This document shows, in pieces, positions 29,940 to 51,359 of a stretch of 64,000 nt of DNA. How positions within the stretch are numbered: position 1 is the first letter of the stretch; each line of letters opens with the position of its first letter. The notes under the pieces are model-generated. The model was not told the origin of the DNA. It was given only the letters and a program-made list of their open reading frames with translations, and made no database searches. Source of the stretch: Flavobacterium subsaxonicum WB 4.1-42 = DSM 21790 (GTDB lineage Bacteria; Bacteroidota; Bacteroidia; Flavobacteriales; Flavobacteriaceae); assembly GCF_000422725.1 (NCBI RefSeq), contig NZ_AUGP01000017.1, forward strand, positions 186,001 to 250,000, given 5' to 3'. The translations under genes were made by a program, and so were the position numbers.

Positions 29940-29958
29940 AAGTGTCGAAATAACACTA
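29940..29958. promoter_or_regulatory. Candidate AraR operator upstream of araA
   Basis: AAGTGT, 7 bp, ACACTA: the most symmetric of five sites with the pattern AARTGT-N7-ACACTW. It is 94 bp before the araA start. Confidence 0.7.
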
Positions 29959-30118
29959 ATTTTTTGACATATACAAGCAATCGGCAAAAAAAATATAAGA
30001 TTGTTTGATTTACGTTCTAAAAATTATTATATAAATTAAATTATCCCACTAAACTTAGCAGATAATAATAACAGTTTATATTTTTTTTGCTTCAAAACAA
30101 GGCAATGAACCATTAAAT

Positions 30119-30137
30119 AATTGTTACAAATACACTT
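30119..30137. promoter_or_regulatory. Candidate AraR operator upstream of the MFS gene
   Basis: AATTGT, 7 bp, ACACTT: one mismatch to the common pattern. It lies between the -33 and -7 boxes of the MFS promoter, a position where a bound regulator would block RNA polymerase. Confidence 0.55.
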
Positions 30138-30144
30138 ATTAATA

Positions 30145-30152
30145 TATATTTG
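30145..30152 (+). promoter_or_regulatory. -7 box of the MFS gene
   Basis: TATATTTG, a perfect match to TAnnTTTG, with a TTG 21 bp upstream. Confidence 0.65.
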
Positions 30153-30173
30153 CCCTACCAATTACGTTTACCA

Positions 30174-31307
30174 ATGAGCCACTCCCCTAAAACATTTCGT
30201 ATTGCTGTTGCCGCCATGTTTTTTATGGCCGGTTTGTGTTTTGCAAGCTGGGCATCGCGCATAGCTACCATACAGCAAAAACTATCCTTATCTGATGCGC
30301 AGTTGGGCGGGGTGCTTTTTGCATTACCCGTGGGGCTAATGCTGTCGTTACCCATATCGGGTTGGGCGGTTACAAAAATGGGCAGCCGTAAAGTACTGGC
30401 TATCGCGTTAACGCTGTATGCTTTGGCTTTGGTTAGCCTGGGCTATGCAGATACTACCTTTGTACTGGTTGCCTGCCTGACAGTTTACGGATTAGCGAGT
30501 AACGCGGTAAACATATCGGTCAATACGCAGGCGGTTGCTACCGAGGTTATGTACACAAAACCCATTATGGCGTCTTTTCATGGGCTGTGGAGCCTGGCTG
30601 GTTTTCTTGGTGCCGGCGTTGGTACTTTAATGATAGCACAGGGTGTTGTACCCCAAACCCACTTTATTATTATTGCCGTTATAATTATTGCCACCATAGT
30701 TATTTGCTGGAACTTTTTACATAACGACCGCAGCCCTGTTAAAAGCGAGGGATCTGGGTTTGTTATGCCCGATAAATCGCTTATTTCGCTGGGGCTGATT
30801 GCCTTTTGCTCTATGGTGGTAGAGGGTGCAATGTTCGACTGGAGCGTTATTTATCTTAAGAAAGTGGTGCAGACCGAAGAAGCCCTTATTGGCGCAGGCT
30901 ATACCGCCGGCATGTGCTTTATGGCGGCTGGCCGCTTTGTAGCCGACTGGTTCTCGCACCGTTTCGGCCTAAAGACTACGCTACAGGTTAGTGGTGCACT
31001 AAGCACCGCCGGATTGCTTGTAGTAGTAATTTTCCCCACCTTTGTACCGGCGCTTATAGGCTTTATGCTGGTGGGTGCAGGTATATCATCGGTAGTGCCA
31101 ATGGTGTACAGCGCGGCAGGCAGAAGCACTACTATGCTGCCCGGCCCGGCTATTGCGGCAGTATCTACAATAAGCTTCGTAGGATTTTTAGTGGGCCCGC
31201 CTGTTATTGGTTTTCTTGCCGAAGCCAGCTCTCTTAAAATATCTTTTTTATTCCTGGCTGTAATGGCATTGTTTGTAGTAATACTTTCTACAAGGGCTAA
31301 AATTTAG
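30174..31307 (+). CDS. MFS transporter
   Basis: 377 residues from the ATG at 30174; the longer frame begins with a TTG inside the promoter. About 12 membrane segments, with the MFS loop motif GWAVTKMGSRKVL between helices 2 and 3 and a related GRFVADWFSHRFGLKT after helix 8. It resembles the sugar/fucose-permease-like group. The divergent position to araA and the AraR-like site in its promoter suggest transport of arabinose or export of a by-product. The direction and substrate cannot be read from sequence. Confidence 0.85.
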   Translation: MSHSPKTFRIAVAAMFFMAGLCFASWASRIATIQQKLSLSDAQLGGVLFALPVGLMLSLPISGWAVTKMGSRKVLAIALTLYALALVSLGYADTTFVLVACLTVYGLASNAVNISVNTQAVATEVMYTKPIMASFHGLWSLAGFLGAGVGTLMIAQGVVPQTHFIIIAVIIIATIVICWNFLHNDRSPVKSEGSGFVMPDKSLISLGLIAFCSMVVEGAMFDWSVIYLKKVVQTEEALIGAGYTAGMCFMAAGRFVADWFSHRFGLKTTLQVSGALSTAGLLVVVIFPTFVPALIGFMLVGAGISSVVPMVYSAAGRSTTMLPGPAIAAVSTISFVGFLVGPPVIGFLAEASSLKISFLFLAVMALFVVILSTRAKI

Positions 31308-31400
31308 CTATCAAATTCATACACAAAAAGTACTTTATCCTAATTTATTTCATAAAATTCAGCAATTTGTTGTTTCGCAAACGTTTTTTTGTATTTTTAT

Positions 31401-31419
31401 AAATGTAATTTAAACACTT
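31401..31419. promoter_or_regulatory. Candidate AraR operator upstream of the GH97 gene
   Basis: AAATGT, 7 bp, ACACTT, ending 4 bp before the start codon; it would cover the start of the message. Confidence 0.65.
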
Positions 31420-31423
31420 ATAA

Positions 31424-33349
31424 ATGATGAAGAATTATTTTTGCGGGGCATTGCTTATTGCCCTTGCTGCCTGCTCGTCTTCCAACAGCAAGACGGCAGA
31501 TAATGTGTCCAGCCCCGATGGAAAACTTACGGTAGACTTTGGTGTTACCAAAAAACAACAGGCTTATTATGTTGTAAAACGCAATAAAGAGGTAGTTATA
31601 GATACGTCTATGATTGGCCTTGTGAGGAAAGACGAGAACTTTTTTGAGAACCTGAGTGTAGCCTCTGTATCTGATGAAGAAAAGATATCTGATTCGTATA
31701 GCCTGTTGCACGGTAAAAAGAAAGAGGTTACCTATAAAGCCAACCAGAAAACGCTGCACCTTGAAAACAAGAACGGCAAAAAGCTCGACGTTATTTTTAA
31801 TGTGTCTAATGATGGTTTTGCCTTTAAATATAAATTCCCCGAAAAATCGGATGATGTAAAATACATTACCGAAGAAAAAACAGCCTATAATTTTAAGCCT
31901 TCGGCGAAGGCCTGGTTGCAACCCATGAGCAAAGCAAAATCGGGTTGGGAGCAGTGTAACCCCGGCTATGAAGAATATTACCAGATGGATGTGCCGGTAA
32001 GCGCAAAATCGCCTATTGGCGAAGGCTGGGTGTATCCTGCTTTGTTTAAGGAAGGCGATACTTGGATAGCAGTTTCCGAAACCGGTTTGGGCCGAACGTA
32101 TTGCGGCACCCACCTTGCTTATGATGATGCTGCCAAAGGTATGAAGGTGGTTTTTGCACAGCCTAAAGAGGTATTTGCAGAGGGCGCTGCCCTTAACCCT
32201 GAAGCTAAGTTGCCTTGGGAAACTCCGTGGCGCATTGTGGCTATTGGCGACCTGGCAACCGTTACCAACAGTACTTTAGGGACTGACCTTGCCGATAAGG
32301 CCGTTAGTAACGATACCGCTTACATTAACCCCGGTATTGCATCGTGGAGCTGGGCTATTTTAAAAGATGATTCGGTTAACTACAACACTACCAAAGAGTT
32401 TATTGATTATGCAGCCGACATGAAATGGCCGTACTGCCTAATTGATGCCGGTTGGGATACACGCATTGGCGAACCTAAAGTTAAAGAGCTGATTGCTTAT
32501 GCCAAAGGCAAGAATGTTAAGCTTATTTTGTGGTACAATTCTGCCGGTAGCTGGAATACGGTTAAGTATACCCCTAAAGATAAATTCCTAACCAAAGAAA
32601 GCCGCGATGCCGAGTTTAAAAAATTGCACGATTGGGGCATTGCAGGTGTAAAAGTCGACTTTTTTGGTGGCGATGGCCAATCGATGATTGCTTACTACCA
32701 TGATATATTAGATTCGGCTTTAAAGAACCAGATACTGATTAACTTTCACGGTGCTACATTGCCGCGTGGCTGGCAACGCACCTACCCTAACCTTATGACG
32801 GCCGAGGCCATTAAAGGTTTTGAGTTTATATCTTTCGAGCAAAATGTAGCCGACCAGGCTCCTGCGCATTGCGCAATGCTGCCGTTTACCCGCAACCTGT
32901 ACGAGCCTATGGATTTTACACCTATGGCATTAGATACCATACCAAACATTAACAGGAGGTCTACCAGTGCTTTTGAGCTGGCTTTGCCTACATTATTCCT
33001 GTCAGGTATTCAGCACTTGGCCGAGATACCCCAGGGAATGGCTAAAATGCCCGATTATGTAAAAACCTACCTACAGGACATTCATACCAATTGGGACGAA
33101 TCTAAGCTATTGGCGGGCTTTCCTGGTAAAGATGTAGTTATGGCACGCCGCAAAGGCAACGTTTGGTTTATTACCGGTATTAATGGCGAGAACAAAGCTA
33201 AAGACATTGCCATAGACCTTAGCTTTATTAAAAAAGACGGTTATATGATTACCGATGGCGCCACCGCCCTGTTTGACAAAACTACGGTTAAGCCCGGCAA
33301 GACTACCATTAAACTAAAGCCTTACGGCGGATTTGTAATGAAGTTTTAG
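31424..33349 (+). CDS. Glycoside hydrolase family 97, candidate beta-L-arabinopyranosidase / alpha-galactosidase
   Basis: 641 residues with a lipoprotein signal (IALAACSSS). It has the GH97 N-terminal beta-sandwich (SSPDGKLTVDFGVTKKQQAY), a TIM barrel and a C-terminal domain. AGVKVDFFGGDG holds an Asp and MTAEAIKGFEF a Glu at the positions of the nucleophile and acid/base of retaining GH97 enzymes, which act on alpha-galactosides. One such member was shown to cleave beta-L-arabinopyranosides, which have the same ring configuration. The AraR-like site in front makes that activity attractive here, but this is inference. Confidence 0.85.
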   Translation: MMKNYFCGALLIALAACSSSNSKTADNVSSPDGKLTVDFGVTKKQQAYYVVKRNKEVVIDTSMIGLVRKDENFFENLSVASVSDEEKISDSYSLLHGKKKEVTYKANQKTLHLENKNGKKLDVIFNVSNDGFAFKYKFPEKSDDVKYITEEKTAYNFKPSAKAWLQPMSKAKSGWEQCNPGYEEYYQMDVPVSAKSPIGEGWVYPALFKEGDTWIAVSETGLGRTYCGTHLAYDDAAKGMKVVFAQPKEVFAEGAALNPEAKLPWETPWRIVAIGDLATVTNSTLGTDLADKAVSNDTAYINPGIASWSWAILKDDSVNYNTTKEFIDYAADMKWPYCLIDAGWDTRIGEPKVKELIAYAKGKNVKLILWYNSAGSWNTVKYTPKDKFLTKESRDAEFKKLHDWGIAGVKVDFFGGDGQSMIAYYHDILDSALKNQILINFHGATLPRGWQRTYPNLMTAEAIKGFEFISFEQNVADQAPAHCAMLPFTRNLYEPMDFTPMALDTIPNINRRSTSAFELALPTLFLSGIQHLAEIPQGMAKMPDYVKTYLQDIHTNWDESKLLAGFPGKDVVMARRKGNVWFITGINGENKAKDIAIDLSFIKKDGYMITDGATALFDKTTVKPGKTTIKLKPYGGFVMKF

Positions 33350-33431
33350 TTTGATAACAATTAAATCTGCATAGGATATACAGATCCTGAGGAGCGTTAT
33401 ATTTATAGAAAAATATAGGCGAGAAGTTTTT

Positions 33432-33487: not shown

Positions 33488-33538
33488 ATGCATACCAATA
33501 TCCTCGCTATAGATATGGCGCTCCTCCGCAGCTCTGTA

Positions 33539-33559: not shown

Positions 33560-33584
33560 CCAATCTGATATCTGATCAAAATAC

Positions 33585-33720: not shown

Positions 33721-34893
33721 TTATTTTACAGAGAATTTATAGGTTGTTTTAGATGTATATTTTTCTCCCGGGCTTAACACCGTGGTAGGGAATTTTGGCT
33801 GGTTTGGTGCATCCGGATAGTGCTGTGTTTCCAGGCACAATCCGCTGCGTTTTTCGTACTTGCCACCTGTTTTGCTGTCTTTGGTGCCATCTATAAAGTT
33901 ACCGCTGTAAAACTGTATGGCGGGCTCTGTAGTGTACACTTCCATGTAACGGCCCGATGTTTTATGATACAGGCTGCCTACGTGGCGAAGGTCTTTAGTA
34001 TTGTTATCGGTAAATACCCAACAATGATCGTAACCACCGCCTTTTTTAAGCTGGTCATCGGTAGCATTAATATCTTTACCAACTTGTTTAGCAGTCGTAA
34101 AATCAAACGGCGTGCCTGCAACAGGTTTAAGTTCGCCTGTAGGTATAAGTGTAGCATCTACCGGCAGCATCCTGTCGGCATTAAGCTGTAACTCATGGTC
34201 TAAGATTGTTTTACCGGCCCCCGAAAGGTTAAAGTACGAGTGCTGTGTTAAATTCACAACTGTTTTCTTATCTGTTACAGCTTCATAATCAATTTCTAAA
34301 GCATTATCGTTAGTAAGCGTGTACGTAACAATAGTTTTAAGGTTACCGGGGTAGCCCTCTTCGCCATCTTTAGCGGTATACGTTAGCCTAATTGTTGGGT
34401 TGGCACCTGCAACCTCTTCGGCTGTAAATATCCTTTTATCAAAACCTTTACCCCCGTGAAGCGAGTTAGGCCCATCGTTAACAGTTAATTGGTACTGTTT
34501 ACCATCTAAAGAAAATTTGCCTTTGGCAATACGGTTACCGTAGCGGCCAATGGCAGCACCAAAAAAGTAAGGGTTACCATTAAAATAATCTTCTTTTTTT
34601 GCATAACCCAAAACAATATCTTCATACTTACCGTCTTTATCAGGAGCGGTTAAAGAGGTTATAATACCGCCAAGGGTAATTACTTCCATCTTCATACCCT
34701 TCTCGTTAGTAAGGGTATATTTTTCAATCTTGGCACCATCGGGCGTTGTACCGTAATCTGCTTTTATAATTCCTGATTTTTTGGCTTGCTGCTCTGTAGT
34801 TTCGGGCATTGTCTCTTCTTTTTTATCGGTTTTGCAACTGAAAAGCAATGCACTGCACATCAAAAGACAAATACCTATTTTTATTTTTTTCAT
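33721..34893 (-). CDS. galM: Aldose 1-epimerase lipoprotein
   Basis: 390 residues from the ATG at 34893, which gives a clean lipoprotein signal (LLMCSALLFSC); a start at 34917 adds eight residues. The mutarotase fold shows NGPNSLHGGKGFDKR with a substrate His, LTQHSYFNLSGAG with the catalytic His, GGGYDHCWVF and the catalytic Glu in GLCLETQHYPDAPN. It interconverts alpha and beta anomers. As an envelope lipoprotein in the araB-araD unit it would prepare free arabinose for uptake. It is the last gene of that unit, 57 bp after araD. Confidence 0.93.
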   Translation of the reverse strand: MKKIKIGICLLMCSALLFSCKTDKKEETMPETTEQQAKKSGIIKADYGTTPDGAKIEKYTLTNEKGMKMEVITLGGIITSLTAPDKDGKYEDIVLGYAKKEDYFNGNPYFFGAAIGRYGNRIAKGKFSLDGKQYQLTVNDGPNSLHGGKGFDKRIFTAEEVAGANPTIRLTYTAKDGEEGYPGNLKTIVTYTLTNDNALEIDYEAVTDKKTVVNLTQHSYFNLSGAGKTILDHELQLNADRMLPVDATLIPTGELKPVAGTPFDFTTAKQVGKDINATDDQLKKGGGYDHCWVFTDNNTKDLRHVGSLYHKTSGRYMEVYTTEPAIQFYSGNFIDGTKDSKTGGKYEKRSGLCLETQHYPDAPNQPKFPTTVLSPGEKYTSKTTYKFSVK

Positions 34894-34950
34894 AATTTTA
34901 GTTTGGTTGGTTTGCATTCTTTACTGCAATATCAGCAAAAATATGTACAA

Positions 34951-35655
34951 TTAGCTTTGCCCGTAGTACGAATCTTTACCGTGTTTGCGGTCGTAATGCT
35001 TTTTAATTAATGAGTCTTTAAGCCTTGGCGCGGCAGGGTTTATTTGCAGCGTTAGGTAAGCCATTTCGGCAACAGCCTCAAGCACTTTACTGTTGTAAAC
35101 CGCCTTGGCAGCATTTTTACCCCATGTAAACGGCCCGTGGTTACCCAGCAGTACCATTTCTACTTCTTTATACGATAAGCCTTTGTCTTTAAAGCAATCC
35201 AGTATCTGGATGCCGGTATTGTGCTCATAATTGCCCTGTATTAAATCATCGGCCATTGGTGGTGCGCATGGTATATCTGCCGTAAGATGGTCGGCATGCG
35301 TAGTACCAAATATCGGGATATCGCGTTGCGACTGCGCCCATGCCACCGAATACGTTGCATGCGTGTGGGCAATACCGCCAATGTCTTCCCAGTGTTTGTA
35401 AAGATAGGCATGCGTTTTAGTGTCGGACGACGGACGCATAGTGCCTTCTATAATGTTATTATCAAAATCAAGTATAACAATATCTTCGGGTTTTAAAATG
35501 TCGTACGGAACGCCACTGGGCTTAATGGCGAAAACGCCCCTTGCCCTGTCTACAGCGCTTACGTTTCCAAAAGTGTAAATTACCAGCTTTAATGCGTCTA
35601 ACTGCATGTTGGCCTCATAACACTCCTGTTTTAGATCTTTATAGCTGGAACTCAT
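34951..35655 (-). CDS. araD: L-ribulose-5-phosphate 4-epimerase
   Basis: 234 residues of the class II aldolase/epimerase type. FGNVSAVDR and IKPSGVPYDILKPEDIVILD bind the phosphate. The zinc histidines lie in GGIAHTHATYSVAWAQ and LGNHGPFTWGK, and YYGQS at the end is the typical tail. It converts L-ribulose 5-phosphate to D-xylulose 5-phosphate. The gene overlaps the end of araB by 17 bp, so the two are translationally coupled. Confidence 0.97.
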   Translation of the reverse strand: MSSSYKDLKQECYEANMQLDALKLVIYTFGNVSAVDRARGVFAIKPSGVPYDILKPEDIVILDFDNNIIEGTMRPSSDTKTHAYLYKHWEDIGGIAHTHATYSVAWAQSQRDIPIFGTTHADHLTADIPCAPPMADDLIQGNYEHNTGIQILDCFKDKGLSYKEVEMVLLGNHGPFTWGKNAAKAVYNSKVLEAVAEMAYLTLQINPAAPRLKDSLIKKHYDRKHGKDSYYGQS

Positions 35656-37330
35656 AATTTTTAGATTTTATTGCGGTTTCTACAAAGTTGCCTAAATCTT
35701 TGTACGATTGCAATAGCGTTTCGTATTTAACTACCTGGTCTGCCTGAGGGAAGTACTCTGCCTCAAAATCGCTGCCCATTACTTTGCTGGCTTCTATTAC
35801 ATTGCTGTAAACACCGGCAGCAACAGCCGCATAAATAGCTGCACCCAATGCCGGAGCCTGGTCTGACTCGGCCACTTTAATTGGCATATCCAGTACGTTG
35901 GCAAGCGTTTGCATAATAAATGGCGACTTACGTGCCACACCGCCAATACCAATAACACTGTTTATTTTAACGCCCTCGGCTTCAAAACGATCAACGATCA
36001 TTTTAGAGCCAAAACAAATGGCATTAACCAAAGCTTTGAAAATATGCGGTGCTTTTGTACCTAACGAAAGTCCCGTCATAGCACTTTTTAGTTCCTGGTT
36101 GGCATCGGGGGTACGGCGGCCATTAACCCAGTCTAACGCCACAGGAATAGCCTCTGACAACGGAATATTTTCTGCCTGGGCAGTAAGCGTACGTATAAAA
36201 TTATTATCTATCTCTACCTGTAATTTTTGTTTCTGGTCGTCGGTTAAGATGGCCGATTTCATTACAAGGTTGTCTATTGGCCACGAAAGTATGTCTTTAA
36301 ACCAGGCCAGTACATCGCCAAAGGCCGATTGCCCGGCCTCAAGGCCAATAAGCCCCGGAATAACCGAACCGTCTACCTGCCCGCAAATACCTTTAACGGT
36401 ATTGGTACCGATGATCTCTGACGGAGATATCATGATATCGCATGTTGATGTACCCATAATACGTACCAACACGTTCTCATCTACCTTAGCCCCTACTGCA
36501 CCGGAGTGTGCATCAAATGTGCCCACAGCAATAACAGTATCGGTTGTAAGACCTAATTTAGCAGCCCATTCGGCATTAAGGTTACCCGCAACAACATCTG
36601 ATGTATAGGTTTCATCATACAAATTGTTACGAAGTGTAGCAAGGTATGGGTGCAGTTGCGAAAGGAATTCTTCTGCCGGAAGGCCATTCCAGCTTTCGTG
36701 CCACATGGCTTTATGCCCTGCTGCACAACGGCTGCGTTTAAACGATTTTAAATCGGCGTTGTCTATAAGCAAATACGTCATTAGGTCGCAGTGCTCCATC
36801 CAGGTATGTGCTGCATTTTTAACCGCTTCATCTTCCCTTACAATGTGAAGTATCTTTGCCCAGAACCATTCAGACGAATAGATACCGCCTTCAAATTTGG
36901 TAAAATCTTCGCCACCCCACGAGGCCGCAAGCTGGTTAATTTCGTTGGCTTCTTTTATAGAGGTATGGTCTTTCCACAATACCATCATAGCGTTAGGGTT
37001 TTCTTCAAAACCTTTAACCAGGGCAAGTGGCGTACCATCCTGAGCAACTGGAATGGGCGACGAACCCGTGGTATCAATACAAATACCCACTACCGATGCC
37101 GGATTAACCTCGCTGGTGCTAACTATAGCTTTTATAGTATTTTCTAAGCCTTCTATATGGTCTAACGGATGCTGCCTGAAACGGTTGGCCTGCGCATCGC
37201 AGTACATACCTTTTTTCCAGCGTGCATACATGTGCACTTCAGAGGCCAGCTCTGCACCGTTCTCTGTATCTATAAGTACTGCACGTACCGAATCTGTACC
37301 ATAGTCCAGACCTATTACATATTTTTTCAT
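35639..37330 (-). CDS. araB: Ribulokinase
   Basis: 563 residues of the FGGY kinase family, the length of AraB. VIGLDYGTDSVRAVLID is the N-terminal phosphate loop. GTFDAHSGAVGAKVDENV and MGTSTCDIMIS follow in the middle, and GGVARKSPFIMQTLANVL is the C-terminal FGGY segment. It phosphorylates L-ribulose with ATP. It is the first gene of araB-araD-galM; a candidate AraR site lies 100 bp before its start and a perfect -7 box 77 bp before it. Confidence 0.97.
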   Translation of the reverse strand: MKKYVIGLDYGTDSVRAVLIDTENGAELASEVHMYARWKKGMYCDAQANRFRQHPLDHIEGLENTIKAIVSTSEVNPASVVGICIDTTGSSPIPVAQDGTPLALVKGFEENPNAMMVLWKDHTSIKEANEINQLAASWGGEDFTKFEGGIYSSEWFWAKILHIVREDEAVKNAAHTWMEHCDLMTYLLIDNADLKSFKRSRCAAGHKAMWHESWNGLPAEEFLSQLHPYLATLRNNLYDETYTSDVVAGNLNAEWAAKLGLTTDTVIAVGTFDAHSGAVGAKVDENVLVRIMGTSTCDIMISPSEIIGTNTVKGICGQVDGSVIPGLIGLEAGQSAFGDVLAWFKDILSWPIDNLVMKSAILTDDQKQKLQVEIDNNFIRTLTAQAENIPLSEAIPVALDWVNGRRTPDANQELKSAMTGLSLGTKAPHIFKALVNAICFGSKMIVDRFEAEGVKINSVIGIGGVARKSPFIMQTLANVLDMPIKVAESDQAPALGAAIYAAVAAGVYSNVIEASKVMGSDFEAEYFPQADQVVKYETLLQSYKDLGNFVETAIKSKNYEFQL

Positions 37331-37406: not shown

Positions 37407-37414
37407 CAAATATA
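37407..37414 (-). promoter_or_regulatory. -7 box of araB
   Basis: TATATTTG on the minus strand, matching TAnnTTTG. The AraR-like site 37430-37448 occupies the place of the -33 box. Confidence 0.55.
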
Positions 37415-37429
37415 ATTACAAATTTTAAT

Positions 37430-37448
37430 AAATGTATTTTTTACACTT
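37430..37448. promoter_or_regulatory. Candidate AraR operator upstream of araB
   Basis: AAATGT, 7 bp, ACACTT: identical over all 19 bp to the site in front of susC, 14 kb away. Confidence 0.8.
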
Positions 37449-37458
37449 GTTATTTTTA

Positions 37459-39435: not shown

Positions 39436-39468
39436 TTAATTGGGTTGTATTATAATTCTTTCTTCTTT

Positions 39469-41472: not shown

Positions 41473-41506
41473 TGTGGTATGTATTTACTATTTATGCAGG
41501 AAAAGG

Positions 41507-42508: not shown

Positions 42509-42511
42509 ATC

Positions 42512-43516
42512 TTATTGTATTCCTTCCGATGTCATTACCACGCGTTTCATGGTACCATCTGTGTTATAGTAAAGTTTGTCTATGCAAACAGATCGTCTAA
42601 AGCTGCCGCCATCGGGCTGTGTAGCGCCGTTGTGGTAAATAAAATACGGCTGCCCTTTAAAATCGATAATGCTTTGGTGGTTGGTGTTGCAGTTGCCTGC
42701 CAGTTCGTTAAGTATACCTTTATACTCCCAAGGGCCTTCCGGCGATTTGCTCATAGCATAGGCAATCTTCTCGGGAAACTGGTAAGCGTAAGAAAGGTAA
42801 TACCAGTCGCCGTGCTTGTGCAGCCAAGGTGCTTCGGTAAAATTTTCCAGCCGTTTTACCACGTTAACAGGTCCATCGGCCTCCAGCATGTTTTCTTTAA
42901 GCTTTATGTATTTACACACCTGGTTACCCCAATATAGGTAAGCCTGGCCGTTATCGTCTATAAATACGGTTGGGTCTATATCGTCCCAGCTTATGCTTAC
43001 CTGCTTTGTCATATCGTTTGTAATAAGGGCTTTGCCCAGCGCATCTTTAAACGGCCCTGTAGGCGAATCTGACACTGCTACACCTATTGCCTTACCGGGA
43101 ATAGTAGCGTGCTCTACCGTAACATACCAGTAAAATTTGCCGTTGCGCTCTATAACCTGAGCTGCCCAGGCATCGCCTTTTGCCCATTTAAAATCGGTTG
43201 TTTTTAACGGAACGGGATGTTCTTTAAAATGAACCATATCGGCGGTTGAATAAACCAGCCACTCGTTCATCTTATAAAAATTGAAATCGTTTGGCGCTTC
43301 ATCGTGCCCTGCATACAGGTATACCGAATCTTTGTAAACCAATGCGGCGGGGTCGCCAGTGTATTTGCCTTTTATTACCGGATTGTTTACCGCCAACGGT
43401 TTTGCCCCCGCAACCGTAACATCTGTATTTTCTTGTTTAGATGCATCAGGTGTTGTATCGTTTTTACACGAAAACAACACCAATGCATTTAATATAACCA
43501 TTACAACTTTCTTCAT
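42512..43516 (-). CDS. GH43 arabinofuranosidase/xylosidase-like lipoprotein
   Basis: 334 residues with a lipobox (LVLFSCKND). GH43 propeller: base Asp in YTGDPAALVYKD, Asp in DDIDPTVFIDDNG and acid Glu in LENFTEAPWLHKHGD. NTNHQSIIDFKGQPYFIYHN is the last blade with a conserved His. It resembles exo-acting members (arabinofuranosidase or xylosidase) rather than endo-arabinanases. As a lipoprotein it would trim oligosaccharides near the membrane. It is 13 bp from the preceding GH43 gene. Confidence 0.9.
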   Translation of the reverse strand: MKKVVMVILNALVLFSCKNDTTPDASKQENTDVTVAGAKPLAVNNPVIKGKYTGDPAALVYKDSVYLYAGHDEAPNDFNFYKMNEWLVYSTADMVHFKEHPVPLKTTDFKWAKGDAWAAQVIERNGKFYWYVTVEHATIPGKAIGVAVSDSPTGPFKDALGKALITNDMTKQVSISWDDIDPTVFIDDNGQAYLYWGNQVCKYIKLKENMLEADGPVNVVKRLENFTEAPWLHKHGDWYYLSYAYQFPEKIAYAMSKSPEGPWEYKGILNELAGNCNTNHQSIIDFKGQPYFIYHNGATQPDGGSFRRSVCIDKLYYNTDGTMKRVVMTSEGIQ

Positions 43517-43529
43517 AATTGTGTTTGCG

Positions 43530-45035
43530 TTATTGTATTTTTTTACCCCAAATTGCGGTACCGTTGTTATTTAAACCCGACAGCAGTATGGTAGATTCTA
43601 TTTTATTCTCCCAGTCGCGGCCACGCTCTACATGCAGTTTATCTACATACGTGCCGCCCCAGGTAAGTGTTAGCCACGGTGCTGTGTACGTCCACGTGTT
43701 AGCGGCCTCGCCGTTTATGGTACCGCCAGCATCTAACTTAAGGGCTACCGAGGTTTGAAAATTAGGATTAGTTTGTTCGTTAGCATAGCCCGGAACAATT
43801 TGGTAGCCTAAGATTATCTGCTCATACGTGCCCACAAGATCTGTAGCAGTAACAGCCGTTTGCGGTACCGCAGCATAACGCTCCGGCGATACTATAGGCC
43901 AGCCGTCTTCTGTCCAAAATACAGGGCGCACATGCAAGTCCATAAAAAAGCTGTTCTCTCCAGGCCTGCCCTGATGTGCCATATAGTACTGGCTGCCTTC
44001 ATCTTTAAATACAGCGCAATGCGCTACGCCCTGCCAACCCGAATGCCCGTTAAACTTGTACGGGGCAAGTATCATAGGGCCATCATCGAGGTTGTTGTTA
44101 ATATCATTACCGGCAAAATCCAGAAACGGGCCTTCGGCAGTATCGCTGCGGCCTACGCGCACGTTATATTTTGTCTGAAGCCAATCATAAGCAATAAACA
44201 GGTAATATTTGTTAAACTGGGCGTTGTAAATAACTTCGGGCCCTTCTATATTGCCATTAATGCTGCTGCCAGTAGACCCTCGCTGTGCCACCCTTATGCC
44301 TTTATCGCCGTTATTCATGGCAAGGCCGGTAGCAGGATTTAGTTGTAACATATAGATGCCATCCCAGGCAGAGCCGTAATACATCCAGTGCTTGCCACTC
44401 TGGTCTATTAAAACGGTTGGATCTATAGCATTGGTTTGTATCGAATTATCGGCTAAGGATGTTACCGTAAGGCCTTTCTCAGTCCACGGGCCAAGCGGCG
44501 ATGTTGCCGTTGCCAACCCTATAACGCTTAACCTTGGAGTTGGCGATGATAACGAATAGTATAAACGGTACTCGCTGTTAACTTTTATAACATAAGGTGC
44601 CCAAAGTGCATTAAAAGGCGTACCCCCATGCGATTGAATAAAAGTCGACCCCATTACCGGCAATTGCGGAAACACCCAACCTTTAAACTCCCATTTAATT
44701 AAATCGGTAGAGGTGCGTATTTGCAGGCCGGGCTGTACTTCTGCACCAAAAGCAACGTCGGTACTGTAACAATAATAGGTATCGCCGTTTTTTATGATCG
44801 ACGGGTCGTGCACATTGCGGTAGCCCCAATTGTAAATATTGCCAATGGCGGCCTCGTTATAATACGTATCTGTAATAGAGTTGATATCAAAATTAACCGG
44901 GGTATCATCGGTTGGAGTATCGTCTGTAGCAGCAACTTCTTCGTCGGGCGTGTCTTTAGAACATGACACCGTTAATACTGAAGCCAGCACGAACGTTGCA
45001 ACTACCGCCTTATATGTTATTTGAGTAAGTTTCAT
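43530..45035 (-). CDS. GH43 endo-arabinanase, surface lipoprotein with C-terminal domain
   Basis: 501 residues. The lipobox VLTVSC is followed by an acidic Asp/Thr-rich linker (about residues 30-50), as in surface-exposed lipoproteins of Bacteroidota. The propeller shows base Asp in RNVHDPSIIKN, Asp in NAIDPTVLID and Glu in NGNIEGPEVIYNAQFN. After about residue 390 there is an extra beta-rich domain (GTYEQIILGYQIVP to the end), typical of the longer endo-arabinanases. It should make the first cuts in arabinan at the cell surface, before SusC/SusD import. Confidence 0.92.
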   Translation of the reverse strand: MKLTQITYKAVVATFVLASVLTVSCSKDTPDEEVAATDDTPTDDTPVNFDINSITDTYYNEAAIGNIYNWGYRNVHDPSIIKNGDTYYCYSTDVAFGAEVQPGLQIRTSTDLIKWEFKGWVFPQLPVMGSTFIQSHGGTPFNALWAPYVIKVNSEYRLYYSLSSPTPRLSVIGLATATSPLGPWTEKGLTVTSLADNSIQTNAIDPTVLIDQSGKHWMYYGSAWDGIYMLQLNPATGLAMNNGDKGIRVAQRGSTGSSINGNIEGPEVIYNAQFNKYYLFIAYDWLQTKYNVRVGRSDTAEGPFLDFAGNDINNNLDDGPMILAPYKFNGHSGWQGVAHCAVFKDEGSQYYMAHQGRPGENSFFMDLHVRPVFWTEDGWPIVSPERYAAVPQTAVTATDLVGTYEQIILGYQIVPGYANEQTNPNFQTSVALKLDAGGTINGEAANTWTYTAPWLTLTWGGTYVDKLHVERGRDWENKIESTILLSGLNNNGTAIWGKKIQ

Positions 45036-45047
45036 ACCAATCAGTTT

Positions 45048-46586
45048 TTATTTACCCTCTAATACTACTACCGAGAATGGCGGCAGTGTTACGGATAGCA
45101 CTCCGTTTTTAAGTTTAAAATCCTTGAAATCTTTAGGTGCAATTACGTTGGGTTTTTCGAACGTATTATGATCCTGAAGTTTAGGTGATGCTACAATTTG
45201 AGCGGTGATGTTTTTAAGCTTAAGTGCATCTACATTAATTTCTACCGTAATTTTTTCGGTTGAATGGATGTTAACCAACGATACATGCGTTTTACCGTCT
45301 TTTGCTGAAGCCGAAGCCGATATGGCCGGTAACGTTTTATTGCCGAATTTATATTCCGGCGATGCCACTTTAAGCGGAATTAGCTTAGCATCCTGGTGTA
45401 CTTTGTACAAATGCATTACATGGTAGGTTGGCGTTAAGATCATTTTATCGCCTTTGGTTAGTATAACCGCCTGTAATACGTTAACCGTTTGTGCCAGGTT
45501 CGCCATGCGCACCCTGTCGCTGTGGTTATTAAAAATGTTTAATGTTGTGCCTGCAATCATTGCATCTCTCATGGTGTTTTGCTGGTATAAAAAGCCGGGG
45601 TTGGTACCCTCTTCTACGTCATACCATCCACCCCACTCGTCTACAATAAGTGCTATTTTTTTATTGGTATCATATTTATCCATTATTTCGCTGTGCTTGG
45701 TAACCAGCTCTTCCATTTTAAGGGCAGTTTGCATGGTGGTAAAATACTGCTCCTCGTTAAAATTGGTAGACGACCCTTTTTTCTCCCACTCTACAAAAGA
45801 ATACGAGTGCAGCGCCACCCCCTCTATAAGGTTTTTAGGGATATCGCGCATTAAAACTTCGGTCCAGTGGTAATCGGCCACGTTAGCACCCGATGCTATC
45901 CTGAACAGTTTGCCGGTATTGCTCCAGTCTGACATAAAGGTTGAATACTGCTTGAAAAGGTTGGCATAATACTCCGGTGTCATGTTGCCGCCGCAGCCCC
46001 ACATTTCGTTACCCACACCCCAGATAGAAACACCCCAGGCTTTATCTCTTTTATTCTTTTTCCTAAGGTCGCTCATTGGGCTTTTACCCGAATGGTTTAC
46101 ATACTGTACCCAATCTGTAAACTCCTGAACCGTACCGCTACCCACATTAGCAGCCAGGTAAGGCTCTGTGCCCAGGGTTTCGCACAGGTCTAAAAAGTCG
46201 TGCGTACCAAAGCTGTTATCTTCTGTAACGCCGCCCCACCACTGGTTAACCATTGTTGGCCGCTCGTCTTTAGGGCCAATACCGTCTTTCCAGTGGTAGG
46301 TATCGGCAAAGCAGCCACCCGGCCATCTTAAATTGGGTATACCCAAATCTTTAAGCGCTGCAATAATATCGTTACGCACACCATTGGTGTTGGGTATCTT
46401 ACTGTTTTCGCCCACATAAAAACCATCGTAAATACACCTGCCCAAATGCTCAGCAAAATGCCCATAGATATGTTTATTTATGGTAGGGGCATTTTCCTGG
46501 CTGGTTAATGTAATGGTCGATTTTTGCTGTGCCGATAAGTTAGTAAGTGTAAAAAGAGCTATAGCAGCTGTGCAGATAAATTTCAT
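45048..46586 (-). CDS. GH51 alpha-L-arabinofuranosidase
   Basis: 512 residues with a signal peptide (CTAAIALFTLTNLSA, then QQKS). The classic GH51 features are present: HIYGHFAEHLGRCIYDG, LRWPGGCFADTYHWKDGIG, acid/base Glu in GVGNEMWGCGG, nucleophile Glu in IVDEWGGWYD, and a C-terminal domain ending in PPFSVVVLEGK. It removes terminal alpha-L-arabinofuranose. Close relatives are often cytoplasmic, so the signal points to a periplasmic role here. It lies between susD (67 bp) and the GH43 genes (12 bp). Confidence 0.94.
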   Translation of the reverse strand: MKFICTAAIALFTLTNLSAQQKSTITLTSQENAPTINKHIYGHFAEHLGRCIYDGFYVGENSKIPNTNGVRNDIIAALKDLGIPNLRWPGGCFADTYHWKDGIGPKDERPTMVNQWWGGVTEDNSFGTHDFLDLCETLGTEPYLAANVGSGTVQEFTDWVQYVNHSGKSPMSDLRKKNKRDKAWGVSIWGVGNEMWGCGGNMTPEYYANLFKQYSTFMSDWSNTGKLFRIASGANVADYHWTEVLMRDIPKNLIEGVALHSYSFVEWEKKGSSTNFNEEQYFTTMQTALKMEELVTKHSEIMDKYDTNKKIALIVDEWGGWYDVEEGTNPGFLYQQNTMRDAMIAGTTLNIFNNHSDRVRMANLAQTVNVLQAVILTKGDKMILTPTYHVMHLYKVHQDAKLIPLKVASPEYKFGNKTLPAISASASAKDGKTHVSLVNIHSTEKITVEINVDALKLKNITAQIVASPKLQDHNTFEKPNVIAPKDFKDFKLKNGVLSVTLPPFSVVVLEGK

Positions 46587-46653: not shown

Positions 46654-48210
46654 TTAGTTGGCCGAGTTGGGCAGTGCGTTAGGATTAACATCCAGTTCGC
46701 GTTGCGGTATCGGAAGATATTCCCTACCCGGAATCCAGGTGTTAAAATCAGAATCGTGCTCTCTTAGCATTGCTAATTTGGCCGGGTCGTACAACCAGCC
46801 CCAACGGATAATATCGTGTATACGGATGCTTTCTATCGAAAGTTCCAGTGCACGCTCGTGTGCTAACTGGTCTCTCATTTGAGTTTGTGTCATTCCCGGT
46901 TGTGTAACATGCAAATCGGGTAAATTAGCACGGTCTCTAACCTGCTGAATGTAATCGTAAGCCTGTGCGGTCTGGCCTAATTCGTTAAGCGCTTCGGCAT
47001 ACATTAACAATACATCTGCATAGCGCATTAAGCGGTAATTAATTTCAGAATACTCCACACCACCCTGGCTTTCGGTACTTACACCAAAACCATCGTGTGT
47101 ATATTTTCTTGGATATATTGCATCTAACGGATTTTGCCAGGGCGCACCATTATATACTGTAGTAGAATTTTCTGATGGCTCGTAAGAAGCAATAGAAACT
47201 AATAAACGAGGGTCTAAATGCCCGTCAACAGTCTGCTCTAATTTATACTCATCATAGATCCAGCGTGTTGGCAGGAAATCCGAATACCCATAACCGTCCA
47301 TAGCATAGGTATGCCCAACAGAGCTTACCTGCATCCATGATGAAAGCGGCTCTCCACCATAATTTTTAACGGTGCCCGAGCCAATAGCAAACTGTACTTC
47401 AAAAAGCGACTCAGAGTTGTTTTCTGCATACGGACTAAAGTTGTCTTTATAATTAGCGGTAAGGCTGTAAATATTAACTTCCGGGCCTACAACAAGCTTC
47501 TGAAATTCGGCTGCTGCCTGGCTCCACTGTTTTGTATATAAATACGATTTACCCAAAAAGCCTGTAGCAGCCCCTTTAGTTGCGCGGCCTACCTGCCCAC
47601 TGTCCGATCCGCTAAGGTCGGCATAACTTACAGGCAATGTGCTTTGTGCAGCAGCAAAGTCGGCTATTATTTGTGCCCATATTTCATCAGACGGTGCTGT
47701 TGCAGCATAATAATCAGATTCGCCGGTTGGCACTGTTGTTATTAACGGTACTTTTTCAAAATTTGTAACAAGGTTAAAATAAGCCAACCCCCTTAAAAAG
47801 TGTGCCTGCCCAAGGCAACGTGCCTTTACATTTTCATCCATTTCTATGGCAGGTACATATTCTATTACCTGATTGGCACGATAAATAGCCTGGTAATAAG
47901 CAGCCCAGGTCCATTCTACAGGGCCGGATGTTGGCAAGATAGAAAAGTTGGCCACCTGTATTAAATCCAGCCAGGGGCTGTCTCCTTTAAAATCGTCTCC
48001 CCTTCCATCAGTAAGGGCAGGCGTCATACGCATGTAGTAACCATCAATTAAAAGGCTGTTGTATATGGCGTTAACACCTTTAACAGCATGCTCTTCGGTT
48101 AGCCAGTACGTATCGGTAGTCTGGCTGTTTGGGTTTACTACATCTAATTCGTCATCGCAACTCATTGTTATAAATAACAAAAGGATAAATGCTATATTTA
48201 ATTTTTTCAT
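46654..48210 (-). CDS. susD: SusD/RagB-family surface glycan-binding lipoprotein
   Basis: 518 residues from the ATG at 48210, which gives a lipoprotein signal (FILLLFITMSC); the ATG at 48231 adds seven residues and overlaps the susC stop. SusD features: the N-terminal TDTYWLTEEHAVKGVNAIYN, TPR-like helices with YRANQVIEYVPAIE and FLRGLAYFNLVTNF, and the C-terminal YRLMRYADVLLMYAEALNE with ERALELSIESIRIHDIIRWGW, both family hallmarks. It forms the lid on SusC and captures arabino-oligosaccharides. Confidence 0.95.
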   Translation of the reverse strand: MKKLNIAFILLLFITMSCDDELDVVNPNSQTTDTYWLTEEHAVKGVNAIYNSLLIDGYYMRMTPALTDGRGDDFKGDSPWLDLIQVANFSILPTSGPVEWTWAAYYQAIYRANQVIEYVPAIEMDENVKARCLGQAHFLRGLAYFNLVTNFEKVPLITTVPTGESDYYAATAPSDEIWAQIIADFAAAQSTLPVSYADLSGSDSGQVGRATKGAATGFLGKSYLYTKQWSQAAAEFQKLVVGPEVNIYSLTANYKDNFSPYAENNSESLFEVQFAIGSGTVKNYGGEPLSSWMQVSSVGHTYAMDGYGYSDFLPTRWIYDEYKLEQTVDGHLDPRLLVSIASYEPSENSTTVYNGAPWQNPLDAIYPRKYTHDGFGVSTESQGGVEYSEINYRLMRYADVLLMYAEALNELGQTAQAYDYIQQVRDRANLPDLHVTQPGMTQTQMRDQLAHERALELSIESIRIHDIIRWGWLYDPAKLAMLREHDSDFNTWIPGREYLPIPQRELDVNPNALPNSAN

Positions 48211-48230
48211 GATCTGAATATTATTTTTCA

Positions 48231-51200
48231 TTAAAATGTCATTTGTACACCAAAAAGATAGGTTCTTGGCCTTGGATAAGTACCTCCGTCAAAACCAGGA
48301 TTAAATACTCCTGCATTAAAATCAGGGTTAAAACCTTTGTATTTTGTAAAAGTATACAGGTTTTGAACAGTACTGTAAATTCTTATCGACTGGATAACTT
48401 TACCAAAAAGGTTAGGCAGTGTATAGCCTAAAGAAACCGTATTGATACGCAGGTAGTCTCCTTTTTGCAGCCATCCCGGCCTGTTAGAATCTCTTGCATT
48501 ACCGTTAGGGTCGTTAGCCACCACTCTTGGTATGTTGGTATCGGTATTTTCCGGTGTCCAGCGGTCTAATATATCTTCATGAGAGTTTATGTAGTCTGTA
48601 GACCACATAAGGCTCCTGTACAAACTACTGTTAATGTAGTATCCTGCCGCACCCGATGCAAATACTGTAAAATCAAGGTTTTTGTATTTGGCTGCAAAAT
48701 TAAAACCGTAGGTAACAGTAGGTATTGCGCTGCCTAAAAAGGTACGGTCATCGGCATCAATTACGCCATCATCATTAAGGTCTTTAAATTTAACATCTCC
48801 GGGAGCTGTGGCAGCGCTTTGAAAAGCATGGTCGGCCACTTCTTCGTTAGACTGAAACAAGCCTTCGTATACATATCCAAAATGTTCGCCCACTTTACCG
48901 CCTACCTGGGTTTTAGACCCGGTACCATAAATTGGCTCATTGTTTCCGCCAAGTGCCAAAACTTCATTTTTTAGTGTACTTGCATTAGCCGAAATATCAA
49001 AGCTAAAATCTTTGCCTTTATCATAATGGTAACCTACCTCTATATCTATACCCGTATTACGCAAACTACCTGCATTTACTACAGGCGTAGTATTTATAGA
49101 CCCTGTAGATAGAGGTATTGGCACACCAACTAAAACATCGGTTGTTTTTTTGTTATAATACTCAACAGTAAAACTTAAAGCATCGTTTAAAAAGCTGGCA
49201 TCTAAACCAATGTTTGCAGATGTTGTTGTTTCCCATTTAATATTCTCATCTACTACGCTGGTTTGCAGGCCACCAACAGCAGTTGCGCCATTAAAATTAT
49301 AAAGGATATTGCCGTTAATAACGGGTTGGAACAAATAGTCGCCAATATTCTGGTTACCTAATTCGCCATAGCTACCACGCAGTTTAATTTGCGAAACAAT
49401 ATCTTTTGAAACCTTAAAGAACTTTTCGTTCGATAATTTCCAGCCCAGTGCAACAGACGGGAAAGTACCATATCTGTTAGAAGCCGCAAACCTTGACGAT
49501 CCGTCGCGCCTTACTGTAGCTGTTAATAAATACCTGTCGTCAAAACTATATGTTACACGACCTAATAATGAAGCTAATGTACTGTTAAACAAAGACCCAC
49601 CAGATGTTTGGTTACTACCATTAGAAAGCACAGGGTGGTAAGGCTCAGGTAAGTTTTCTGAGTGGCCTGTTCTTGTAACGGCATCATTAGTCTGGTACGT
49701 TTGCCCTACCAAAACATCTACATCGTGTTTACCAAATACTTTTTTATAGTTTATAGTATTTTCTACAAGTGTTGTGGTGTATATCCTTGAGTTATCGTCT
49801 AATAGCGATTTACCCGAACCGAAGAAATACCCCATTTCAAATTTTGGTACAAAAGAAAAATCTCTTGCCTGGGTTTTATCGTAGCTTAAATTTAGCTTAT
49901 ACGTTAGTTCATGCCCGCCGCTGTTTATTAGTTTAAACTCAGGGTTAATAATAGCAAACGTTCTGTCTACCTCTACAGAGTTAGTAAACAATGAGTTAAT
50001 ACCCGGAACGTTAAGTGCTATAGTTTGGTGTATTGTAGAATCTGTACCGCCATAGCCGCCTATATTGTTTTCATCGTACAATGCCATAGTAGGTATTGCA
50101 ATAACTAAGTCGTTGATTAGCGGTGGCCTGCCTCCGGTTAACACGTCTCCCCTAAAGGTTAAAGAGTTTTCGAAAGAGTGTGTATAGTATAATGAAGGCG
50201 ACATTTTAAAGATACCTTTCTCTATAGTAACATTTATACGCCCCGAATATCTTTCGTAAGATGGCCCGTTGCCCACAAACATACCTTTGTTTTCAAAATA
50301 ATCCATAGAGGCGTTATAGGTAACGTTTTCGCCACCACCCGAAAAATTAAAGCTATGATTTTTACGGGTACCATCTTTTAAGCCTATTTTTTGCCAGTCG
50401 TTATCTATATTATCCACAAACAGGTCAGACGACGGGTCGTTACCTGCAATTAGCGGTAAGCCGGCATTTGTACGCTTCTCATTTACAATCATTTGGTAAT
50501 CCTGCCTTCCTAAAACCGGAATTTTTTGCGCTACCTGGTCTACACCATAGTAACCGCTGTAATCTATTTTTAGCGGCGAGTTCTTAACACCTCTTTTAGT
50601 AGTAATAATAACTACACCATTGGCAGCCCTTGAACCGTAAATAGCACCTGCCGAAGCATCTTTTAACACCTGTATACTCTTGATATCATTAGGGTTAAAA
50701 TCCCTTACCGATGTTCCTACCGGTACACCATCTACAACATACAAAGGCTGGTTATCGCCAAATGTACCTATACCCCTAATCCTGATGTTTGGTGCTGCAC
50801 CCGGCTGACCATCGCTGGTTACGTTTACACCTGCAGAGCGCCCCTGTAGTAACTGAGACACATCGCTGTTAGATACTTTTAGCACCTCGCCAACGTCTAC
50901 CACGGCAACAGACCCTGTAATATCTGCCTTTTTTTGGGTACCATAGCCAATTACAACAACATCATCTAAGGTTGTAGCTTCAGATACCAATACTACATTT
51001 AAAGTTGTGTTAGTGCCCACTTTAATTTCCTGGGGAGTAAACCCAATGTAGGAAAAAACTAATACATCGTTTGCGTTAGCAGTGATAGAATAAGAGCCAT
51101 CTATATCTGTAGCCGCAGAATTAGACGTGCCCTTTACCACTACGCTCGCTCCTGGCAAACCCAGGCCGTCGTCTTTAGAGGTTATTTCCCCTTTAACTGT

Positions 51201-51320
51201 CACGCTTTGAGCGTTAACGGTGCAAACAGAAAATAGAATTAATGCAAATCCTGCTAACTTCATTTTCATGAGCCGGCCGGAAGCGCATCGTAAAAAGTTG
51301 GTAATTTTCATCATAATCAA
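48231..51320 (-). CDS. susC: SusC/RagA-family TonB-dependent outer-membrane transporter
   Basis: 1029 residues; inner starts at Met4 or Met18 would place the signal (LAGFALILFSVCTVNA) at the very N-terminus. A carboxypeptidase-D-like beta domain (GLGLPGASVVVKGT, FSYIGFTPQEI) leads to the TonB contact DVVVIGYGTQKKADITGSV. The plug follows (QLLQGRSAGVNVTSDGQPG, then ASAGAIYGSRAANGVVIITT), and a 22-strand barrel ends in the aromatic YLFGVQMTF. It imports oligosaccharides bound by SusD. It heads an eight-gene operon that reaches 37459, controlled by the site at 51341. Confidence 0.96.
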   Translation of the reverse strand: MIMMKITNFLRCASGRLMKMKLAGFALILFSVCTVNAQSVTVKGEITSKDDGLGLPGASVVVKGTSNSAATDIDGSYSITANANDVLVFSYIGFTPQEIKVGTNTTLNVVLVSEATTLDDVVVIGYGTQKKADITGSVAVVDVGEVLKVSNSDVSQLLQGRSAGVNVTSDGQPGAAPNIRIRGIGTFGDNQPLYVVDGVPVGTSVRDFNPNDIKSIQVLKDASAGAIYGSRAANGVVIITTKRGVKNSPLKIDYSGYYGVDQVAQKIPVLGRQDYQMIVNEKRTNAGLPLIAGNDPSSDLFVDNIDNDWQKIGLKDGTRKNHSFNFSGGGENVTYNASMDYFENKGMFVGNGPSYERYSGRINVTIEKGIFKMSPSLYYTHSFENSLTFRGDVLTGGRPPLINDLVIAIPTMALYDENNIGGYGGTDSTIHQTIALNVPGINSLFTNSVEVDRTFAIINPEFKLINSGGHELTYKLNLSYDKTQARDFSFVPKFEMGYFFGSGKSLLDDNSRIYTTTLVENTINYKKVFGKHDVDVLVGQTYQTNDAVTRTGHSENLPEPYHPVLSNGSNQTSGGSLFNSTLASLLGRVTYSFDDRYLLTATVRRDGSSRFAASNRYGTFPSVALGWKLSNEKFFKVSKDIVSQIKLRGSYGELGNQNIGDYLFQPVINGNILYNFNGATAVGGLQTSVVDENIKWETTTSANIGLDASFLNDALSFTVEYYNKKTTDVLVGVPIPLSTGSINTTPVVNAGSLRNTGIDIEVGYHYDKGKDFSFDISANASTLKNEVLALGGNNEPIYGTGSKTQVGGKVGEHFGYVYEGLFQSNEEVADHAFQSAATAPGDVKFKDLNDDGVIDADDRTFLGSAIPTVTYGFNFAAKYKNLDFTVFASGAAGYYINSSLYRSLMWSTDYINSHEDILDRWTPENTDTNIPRVVANDPNGNARDSNRPGWLQKGDYLRINTVSLGYTLPNLFGKVIQSIRIYSTVQNLYTFTKYKGFNPDFNAGVFNPGFDGGTYPRPRTYLFGVQMTF

Positions 51321-51340
51321 TAAAATTTGGTTTGTTTTAT

Positions 51341-51359
51341 AAATGTATTTTTTACACTT
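51341..51359. promoter_or_regulatory. Candidate AraR operator at the susC promoter
   Basis: AAATGT, 7 bp, ACACTT, directly downstream of the -7 box, so over the likely transcription start. It is identical to the araB site. Confidence 0.8.

Follow-up and report, generated by a model that had tools for sequence, protein, structure and literature searches.

Organization of the Arabinose Region

We analyzed a stretch of 64,000 nt from Flavobacterium subsaxonicum WB 4.1-42 (contig NZ_AUGP01000017.1, positions 186,001 to 250,000; hereafter the window, numbered from its first base), in which genes of the L-arabinose pathway, a susCD pair, a run of glycoside hydrolase genes and transporter genes are found together with a gene at 51543 for a NUDIX-type regulator, araR, which stands divergent from susC. 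A first-pass annotation had proposed that five copies of a 19-bp palindrome, AARTGT-N7-ACACTW, mark the promoters of a regulon controlled by this gene. The positions it gave were right: the pattern is matched exactly at 29940-29958 (before araA), 31401-31419 (before a GH97 gene), 37430-37448 (before araB) and 51341-51359 (before susC), and with one mismatch at 30119-30137 (before an MFS transporter gene). All five sites are intergenic, as had been noted, and the susC and araB copies are indeed identical over 19 bp, or over 20 bp if the preceding T is counted. While the sites lie before the genes to which they had been assigned, two of the gene starts needed correction, as the MFS gene probably begins at ATG 30174 and not at TTG 30150, and susC at ATG 51314 and not at TTG 51320.

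The four exact matches compare with a mean of 0.02 in 100 shuffles of the window, none of which gave four. When one mismatch was allowed, 11 strand matches were found against 1.7 expected, and again none of the 100 shuffles gave as many; with two mismatches the search became uninformative, since 33 matches against 26.3 expected, with 10 of 100 shuffles reaching 33, is near chance. The remaining one-mismatch place in the window, 48234-48252, falls in the 3′ end of susC, and the matrix described below gives it less than 9. The AraR motif is 21 bp long according to PMC4666351, and one extra base on each side of the 19-bp pattern gives 21-mers starting at 29939, 30118, 31400, 37429 and 51340. With the halves read as RTGT around N7, three of the five sites have one ATGT half, and the MFS site has one ATTGT half. 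The araB site sits within a same-strand run, in which a GH51-type gene is followed by the site and then by araB, and would therefore mark an internal promoter. On the minus strand araA is followed by a sodium symporter gene, a transaldolase-type gene and two genes for the N- and C-terminal parts of transketolase, and we infer that araA through the transketolase C gene form one operon.

Identity of the Regulator

Judging from its sequence, the 51543 product is an ortholog of AraR. It scores above the Pfam cut-offs for NUDIX (42.3 bits), NrtR_WHD (84.9 bits) and AraR_C (42.2 bits), and its best match in the PDB is the AraR of Bacteroides thetaiotaomicron, BtAraR (5bs6 and three other entries, E = 1.7e-69), with 111 of 216 aligned residues equal; the next match, a Shewanella NrtR-type protein (3gz5), follows at E = 2.1e-23. 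It is 92% identical to the AraR of F. zepuense. An identity as an NAD-type NrtR was rejected, the NCBIfam NtrR equivalog model giving only 140.2 bits against a cut-off of 400. Matches to AraR of at least 320 bits were found in 42 of 150 sampled genomes of the genus, its own included.

Arg34, Arg86 and His131, which hydrogen-bond arabinose in BtAraR (PMC4666351), correspond to Arg33, Arg85 and His129 here and are present in 80 of 80 relatives as well, as are the reading-helix residues Asp178, Lys179, Arg180 and Asn181. Among the hydrophobic-pocket residues tested (BtAraR Tyr5, Phe36, Gly47, Gly48, Phe49, Val92 and Phe129), the multiple alignment shows six of seven to be equal; Val92 is replaced by Thr here and by Thr (71) or Ile (9) in the relatives, and Tyr5 is paired with Asn5 in the pairwise match and with a Tyr in the multiple alignment. 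The NUDIX catalytic signature, examined by eye on the translation, is impaired, with GX5E kept, RE changed to RV and EE changed to HL; an impaired signature with two or three Glu replaced is a criterion for the AraR family.

Predicted Operators Around AraR in Relatives

We examined the best 80 of 182 AraR loci, whose record titles are nearly all Flavobacteriia; these loci are mutually related, and counts drawn from them are not independent. When AARTGT-Nk-ACAYT was searched on both strands with k from 2 to 14, k = 7 gave 394 matches and any other spacing at most 16. The k = 7 matches correspond to 220 distinct centres, 207 of them upstream of an open reading frame (ORF; here a crude open frame of at least 90 codons), 6 inside one and 7 elsewhere, and 76 of the 80 loci hold at least one such site. 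Looser halves raise spacing 5, to 28 matches against 57 at spacing 7 for GTGT/ACAC and to 96 against 242 for RTGT/ACAC. Inspected by eye, many spacing-5 matches turn out to be the spacing-7 sites read with a shift of two bases, at GTGTGT or ACACAC, and others lie elsewhere, including in coding sequence. For distant AraR genes, GTGT-N7-ACAC occurs 11 times in intergenic DNA, against 0-2 times at other spacings.

A symmetric matrix was built from 214 pattern-found sites in the 80 loci, not from the F. subsaxonicum genome. At a score of at least 14 it finds 229 sites in these loci, 227 outside ORFs and 2 inside, 8 of them without a gene start in reach, and on the reversed sequence 0 of 305,360 positions reach 14. 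Counting the loci in which a site precedes a given gene (a site between divergent genes can count twice), we found sites before araR in 70 of 80, susC in 40 of 46, araB in 20 of 27 and SSF symporter genes in 26 of 42; they were less common before GH51b (20/59), GH127 (8/17), tal (6/24) and GH51a (1/10). The gene for transketolase N is preceded by a site in 6 of 8 loci for the window type and in 11 of 11 for the type at C2. No site was found directly before araA (0/24), araM (0/46), araD (0/26), susD (0/44), three GH43 genes (0/29, 0/33 and 0/42), GH97 (0/1) or transketolase C (0/2) in the 80 loci.

The window sites themselves are conserved. F. zepuense has a counterpart of all five at the same genes, with scores of 25.0, 24.7, 23.1, 19.0 and 17.2. 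The araA operator is kept at 21 of 21 bases in F. zepuense (G001), G147 and G003, in which 81, 70 and 50 of 120 flank columns are equal, and at 20 of 21 in two more relatives, G002 and G004 (flanks 54 and 47 of 120). The F. zepuense pairs at susC and araB are alone less telling because their flanks are also well conserved (100/120 and 104/120). In two further relatives the araB site is kept at 17 and 18 of 21 bases, with flanks of 65/120 and 46/120 and scores of 25.0 and 26.2, and the MFS site matches that of F. zepuense at 18 of 21 with flanks of 62/120. Features of the window are listed in Table 1.

Table 1. Predicted AraR operators and genes of the arabinose region, in window coordinates.
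Feature	Coordinates	Strand	Evidence or remarks
araR, NUDIX-type (NrtR-family) regulator with winged-helix C-terminus, 227 aa	51543..52226	+	Pfam, PDB match, residues
Predicted AraR operator before susC	51340..51360		score 23.1; F. zepuense 21/21
Predicted AraR operator before araB	37429..37449		score 24.7; F. zepuense 21/21
Predicted AraR operator before GH97	31400..31420		score 25.0; F. zepuense 21/21; 3 bp before ATG 31424
Predicted AraR operator before araA operon	29939..29959		score 19.0; 21/21 in three relatives, 20/21 in two
Weaker predicted AraR operator before MFS gene	30118..30138		score 11.9; F. zepuense counterpart 18/21, score 17.2
araA, L-arabinose isomerase	28353..29846	-	Pfam and NCBIfam PRK02929 above cut-off
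Sodium:solute symporter after araA; likely arabinose uptake	26606..28312	-	Pfam SSF; NCBIfam sss above cut-off
Transaldolase / fructose-6-phosphate aldolase type gene	25916..26584	-	Pfam TAL_FSA; TIGR00875 above cut-off
Transketolase N-terminal part, separate gene	25068..25913	-	Pfam Transketolase_N
Transketolase C-terminal part, separate gene	24007..24966	-	top NCBIfam hits to the C-terminal half of transketolase models, under the full-length cut-offs
MFS transporter; probable start ATG 30174 (ORF listed from TTG 30150)	30174..31307	+	Pfam MFS_1
GH97 glycoside hydrolase	31424..33349	+	Pfam
araB, ribulokinase	35639..37330	-	TIGR01234 and PRK04123 above cut-off
araD, L-ribulose-5-phosphate 4-epimerase	34951..35655	-	PRK08193 above cut-off
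Aldose 1-epimerase (araM-like)	33721..34917	-	PRK11055 above cut-off
Hydrolase run: two arabinofuranosidase genes (GH51-type), one GH127, three GH43	37459..46586	-	Pfam
susD	46654..48231	-	Pfam
susC, TonB-dependent receptor; probable start ATG 51314	48231..51320	-	Pfam

Promoter-Like Boxes Near the Predicted Operators

We searched around the sites for the Bacteroidetes -7 box, TANNTTTG. On the gene strand, between -45 and +60 of the site centre, it accompanies 89 of 195 distinct oriented sites, against a mean of 23.8 and a maximum of 34 in 100 simple shuffles, and 99 boxes lie on the gene strand against 33 on the opposite strand. These 99 boxes cluster relative to the site centre, with 30 starting at -18, 18 at +39 and 14 at +26. 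In the window, the susC operator immediately follows a TAAATTTG box at 51361-51368 (minus strand); at araB and the MFS gene, the operator has a TATATTTG box between it and the gene, at 37407-37414 (minus strand) and 30145-30152 (plus strand), respectively. We infer from these positions that the sites serve repression.

Sites and Regulators Elsewhere in the Genome

In the 4.64-Mb genome the exact 19-bp pattern has six distinct places, four in the window and one each at C2:59703 and C1:1044838. A one-mismatch genome scan was discarded as a regulon finder, since its matches, 62 on each of the forward and reverse strands where the reversed-pattern control gave 37 and 36, are largely chance; the matrix was used instead, scored on the window and on selected pattern-listed places (187,014 bases fetched). 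Places at C3:6753, C4:110975 and C1:815762 were rejected, as they lie inside ORFs and score below 9.

Ten places are known to score at least 14, eight of them at sugar-locus genes. The exact site at C1:1044838 precedes a susCD locus that also includes a GH31 gene and the gene of a hybrid two-component regulator, and a second place, C1:1044372 (15.1), lies at the start of the open frame of that regulator. The top score known in the genome, 25.7, belongs to C1:690268, between genes for a GntR-type regulator and a DUF2264 protein. The gene after DUF2264 is close to the model of the rhamnosidase BT3686 (607.8 bits against a cut-off of 700), an enzyme that acts on arabinogalactan proteins. The DUF2264 gene of F. 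zepuense is likewise preceded by a site (16.4), and none was found upstream in the eight other loci checked.

Two paralogs of AraR, 42% (C15:897-1547) and 38% (C6:29469-30137) identical to it, are encoded in the genome, both with NUDIX, NrtR_WHD and AraR_C domains. The gene at C15 is divergent from a xylose isomerase gene, and that at C6 lies near genes for a GH42 beta-galactosidase and a nucleoside-hydrolase-like protein.

The transketolase gene pair of the window is present a second time, at about 59.8 kb of C2, and the exact site at C2:59703 lies about 105 bp before it. We scored 400 bases upstream (+30) of the best relatives of the C2 transketolase N gene, counting scores of at least 14, in 29 AraR-bearing genomes of the 80 loci, in 26 of the 42 AraR-bearing genomes of the genus sample (two without a match) and in 25 genomes lacking AraR, that is, without a match of at least 320 bits; seven further close transketolase copies were left outside the counts. 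Sites were present at 8 of 30 loci in the 29 genomes, at 2 of 25 loci in the 24 more, and at 0 of 25 loci in the genomes lacking AraR. After removal of one duplicate, this is 10 of 54 loci with AraR against 0 of 25 without (one-sided Fisher test, 0.017, relatedness ignored). The C2 site differs from those of F. zepuense and G003 at 7 of 21 bases. Transketolase sites look real where they are present.

DNA Contacts and Operator Halves

Six DNA contacts of BtAraR (Lys179, Arg180, Asn181, Lys184, Lys204 and Arg205) have been called absolutely conserved in the AraR orthologs of the phylum, the ortholog set behind this criterion being drawn from Bacteroides and Prevotella (PMC4666351). AraR of F. 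subsaxonicum differs at three of the six, with Asn for Lys184, Arg for Lys204 and Lys for Arg205. Among the 80 relatives, position 184 is Ser (56) or Asn (24), position 204 is Arg (69), Lys (10) or Thr (1), and position 205 is Lys in all 80. Arg183 is replaced by Ile in F. subsaxonicum and in all 80 relatives. For these 80 orthologs, nearly all Flavobacteriia, absolute conservation of Lys184, Lys204 and Arg205 does not hold, and the six-contact criterion as printed looks too narrow, because Arg205 is often Lys in 20 further genomes of the phylum too.

The operators of the same loci are mostly unequal: 99 of 134 distinct 25-mers combine one GTGT with one ATGT half, 14 have two G halves (GG) and 21 have two A halves (AA). 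Intergenic N7 sites in 19 loci with Lys or Arg at position 184 comprise 11 GG, 5 mixed and 3 AA and are spread over 15 of these loci, whereas those in 80 loci with Ser or Asn184 comprise 48 GG, 168 mixed and 35 AA (GG share, two-sided Fisher test, 0.0004, relatedness ignored). Three observations speak against an altered interface as the cause: a further locus with Asn184 (L285) has a GG site, the araA and transketolase sites of the F. subsaxonicum genome are themselves GG, and the change of Arg205 to Lys is frequent in the 19 Lys/Arg184 loci as well. The association between residue 184 and operator type is a correlation between clades, and the DNA code of flavobacterial AraR is possibly shifted.

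Discussion

The family of the regulator, its closest structure, the operator layout, the N7 spacing in 80 loci and the footprints in relatives support the regulon proposed in the first-pass annotation. AraR likely binds the sites because their layout, spacing and gene context match those of AraR operators, and the sequence comparisons make it very probable that a dimer of the 51543 protein occupies the 21-bp sites and keeps five transcription units repressed until it is released by L-arabinose. Free of arabinose, the protein would be bound to RTGT-N7-ACAY. Since the TAAATTTG box of susC directly precedes the operator, the start of transcription would be covered there; at araB and the MFS gene, where the TATATTTG box is found between operator and gene, the covered DNA would be that just upstream of the -7 box. 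L-arabinose bound to Arg33, Arg85 and His129 of the NUDIX domain would then turn the winged helices off the DNA, as arabinose turns them away and releases the DNA in BtAraR (PMC4666351). The units opened in this way would provide glycan capture (susCD), arabinan cutting (GH43, GH51-type, GH127 and GH97), uptake (SSF and MFS) and araBDA, and transaldolase and transketolase would carry xylulose-5-phosphate on. The second split transketolase at C2, with its own site, would be raised together with the ara units. The predicted reach is wider than the arabinose pathway and transporter genes first envisaged and takes in transaldolase, transketolase and two more polysaccharide loci.

Several observations weigh against this interpretation. 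The MFS site is the weakest in the window by matrix (11.9 against 19.0-25.0 for the other four), no TANNTTTG box places the araA operator within -45 to +60, and the box listed for GH97 lies inside the gene. In the relatives, 4 of the 80 loci lack a strict site and 26 have just one, 4 of 19 AraR loci outside the Flavobacterium-type set have no N7 site within the stretch fetched, and many ara-type genes have no direct site (SSF 16/42, tal 18/24, araA 24/24 and araD 26/26), which operon structure may explain. The transketolase site is patchy: of the 54 loci in genomes with AraR, 44 lack it. Two of the ten high-scoring places have no visible link to arabinose: C7:3720-3740 (18.7) precedes a 147-aa ORF and C5:166583 (15.3) a 370-aa ORF that matches GH16 weakly. 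The first-pass annotation had held that many equally good places at unrelated genes would speak against a regulon. The exact pattern has its two places outside the window at transketolase and susCD genes; on the other side stand these two unrelated matrix places and a reversed-pattern control that has two places in the genome, because of which a single out-of-window exact place is not beyond chance by pattern alone. Finally, the two paralogs could share the sites.

We think it quite unlikely that AraR activates some promoters or regulates them in both directions, aiding RNA polymerase at those whose -7 box is well downstream of the operator. The non-uniform box positions, with peaks at +26 and +39 beside that at -18, would suit such a role, but the release of BtAraR from DNA on arabinose binding fits repression (PMC4666351), as do the susC operator directly after its box and the GH97 operator just before the start codon. 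We consider it very unlikely that the sites are bound mainly by one of the paralogous regulators, or shared, with the 51543 protein not the main binder. Both paralogs have the same three domains, and the C6 paralog has a one-mismatch match upstream; however, that match scores 8.5, the fetched stretch of the C15 paralog holds no site of at least 9, and its position beside the xylose isomerase gene suggests a XylR-like role. In relatives, moreover, the motif clusters around the AraR ortholog, araR itself being so often preceded by a site. That the sites belong to an unrelated regulator which shares these genes by chance is scarcely credible, for although the top-scoring place adjoins a GntR-type regulator gene, the layout equals that of published BtAraR operators (PMC4666351) and distant AraR genes show the same N7 preference.

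Binding by AraR with repression of the arabinose units thus remains our preferred explanation. More tentatively, and with somewhat less than even confidence, we propose that AraR of Flavobacteriia is a pentose-flux regulator, covering arabinose capture, araBDA and the non-oxidative pentose-phosphate step, including a stand-alone transketolase outside the ara locus, and that its DNA interface, re-tuned by the changes of Lys184 to Ser/Asn and of Arg183 to Ile, favours unequal GTGT/ATGT operators. Judging from the transketolase site, the sensor of a sugar may at the same time raise the step of central metabolism into which that sugar has to flow. A regulon of this kind is known, and we found it in a genus for which no description turned up: no flavobacterial AraR regulon was found in the open-licence literature by title or abstract start, among the matches listed, which is weak evidence of absence. 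The wider reach and the possible shift of DNA code would be its new parts. The analysis takes an arabinose switch of gut bacteria, whose structure is solved, into a large group of bacteria from soil and water and provides a candidate list of AraR target genes for that group; with the altered protein-DNA contacts set beside the shift in operator type, the DNA code of the family becomes directly testable.

Comparison With Known Systems

The closest known system is AraR of B. thetaiotaomicron (BT0354), which shares with the protein described here the NUDIX and winged-helix domains, the arabinose contacts and the Asp-Lys-Arg-Asn reading motif, and whose regulon likewise has a 21-bp semi-palindrome, GTGT-N7-ACAC, and comprises arabinose enzymes, SusCD, arabinan hydrolases and GH97 (PMC4666351). 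The three predicted sites in its electrophoretic mobility shift assay fragments are all GTGT-N7-ACAC (PMC4666351), whereas most operators of the flavobacterial relatives combine one GTGT with one ATGT half. The systems differ also in the contacts at 184, 204 and 205 and in gene order, as araR is here divergent from susC and not inside araMPRDAB. Transaldolase and transketolase are included here; the main text of the paper on the Bacteroides regulon mentions neither transketolase nor tkt (PMC3878776).

Two other groups share the NrtR family with AraR. One source considered for NUDIX regulators, PMC12125979, was set aside, as it concerns an AraC-type XylR. NrtR-type NAD regulators such as that of Shewanella (3gz5) have the same domain architecture, but the match to them is much weaker and they respond to ADP-ribose (PMC4666351). 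XylR (BT0791), the sister NUDIX-type xylose regulator, is a sugar-linked member of the family tied to xylose genes (PMC4666351, PMC3878776), and its likely counterpart in F. subsaxonicum is the C15:897 paralog beside the xylose isomerase gene.

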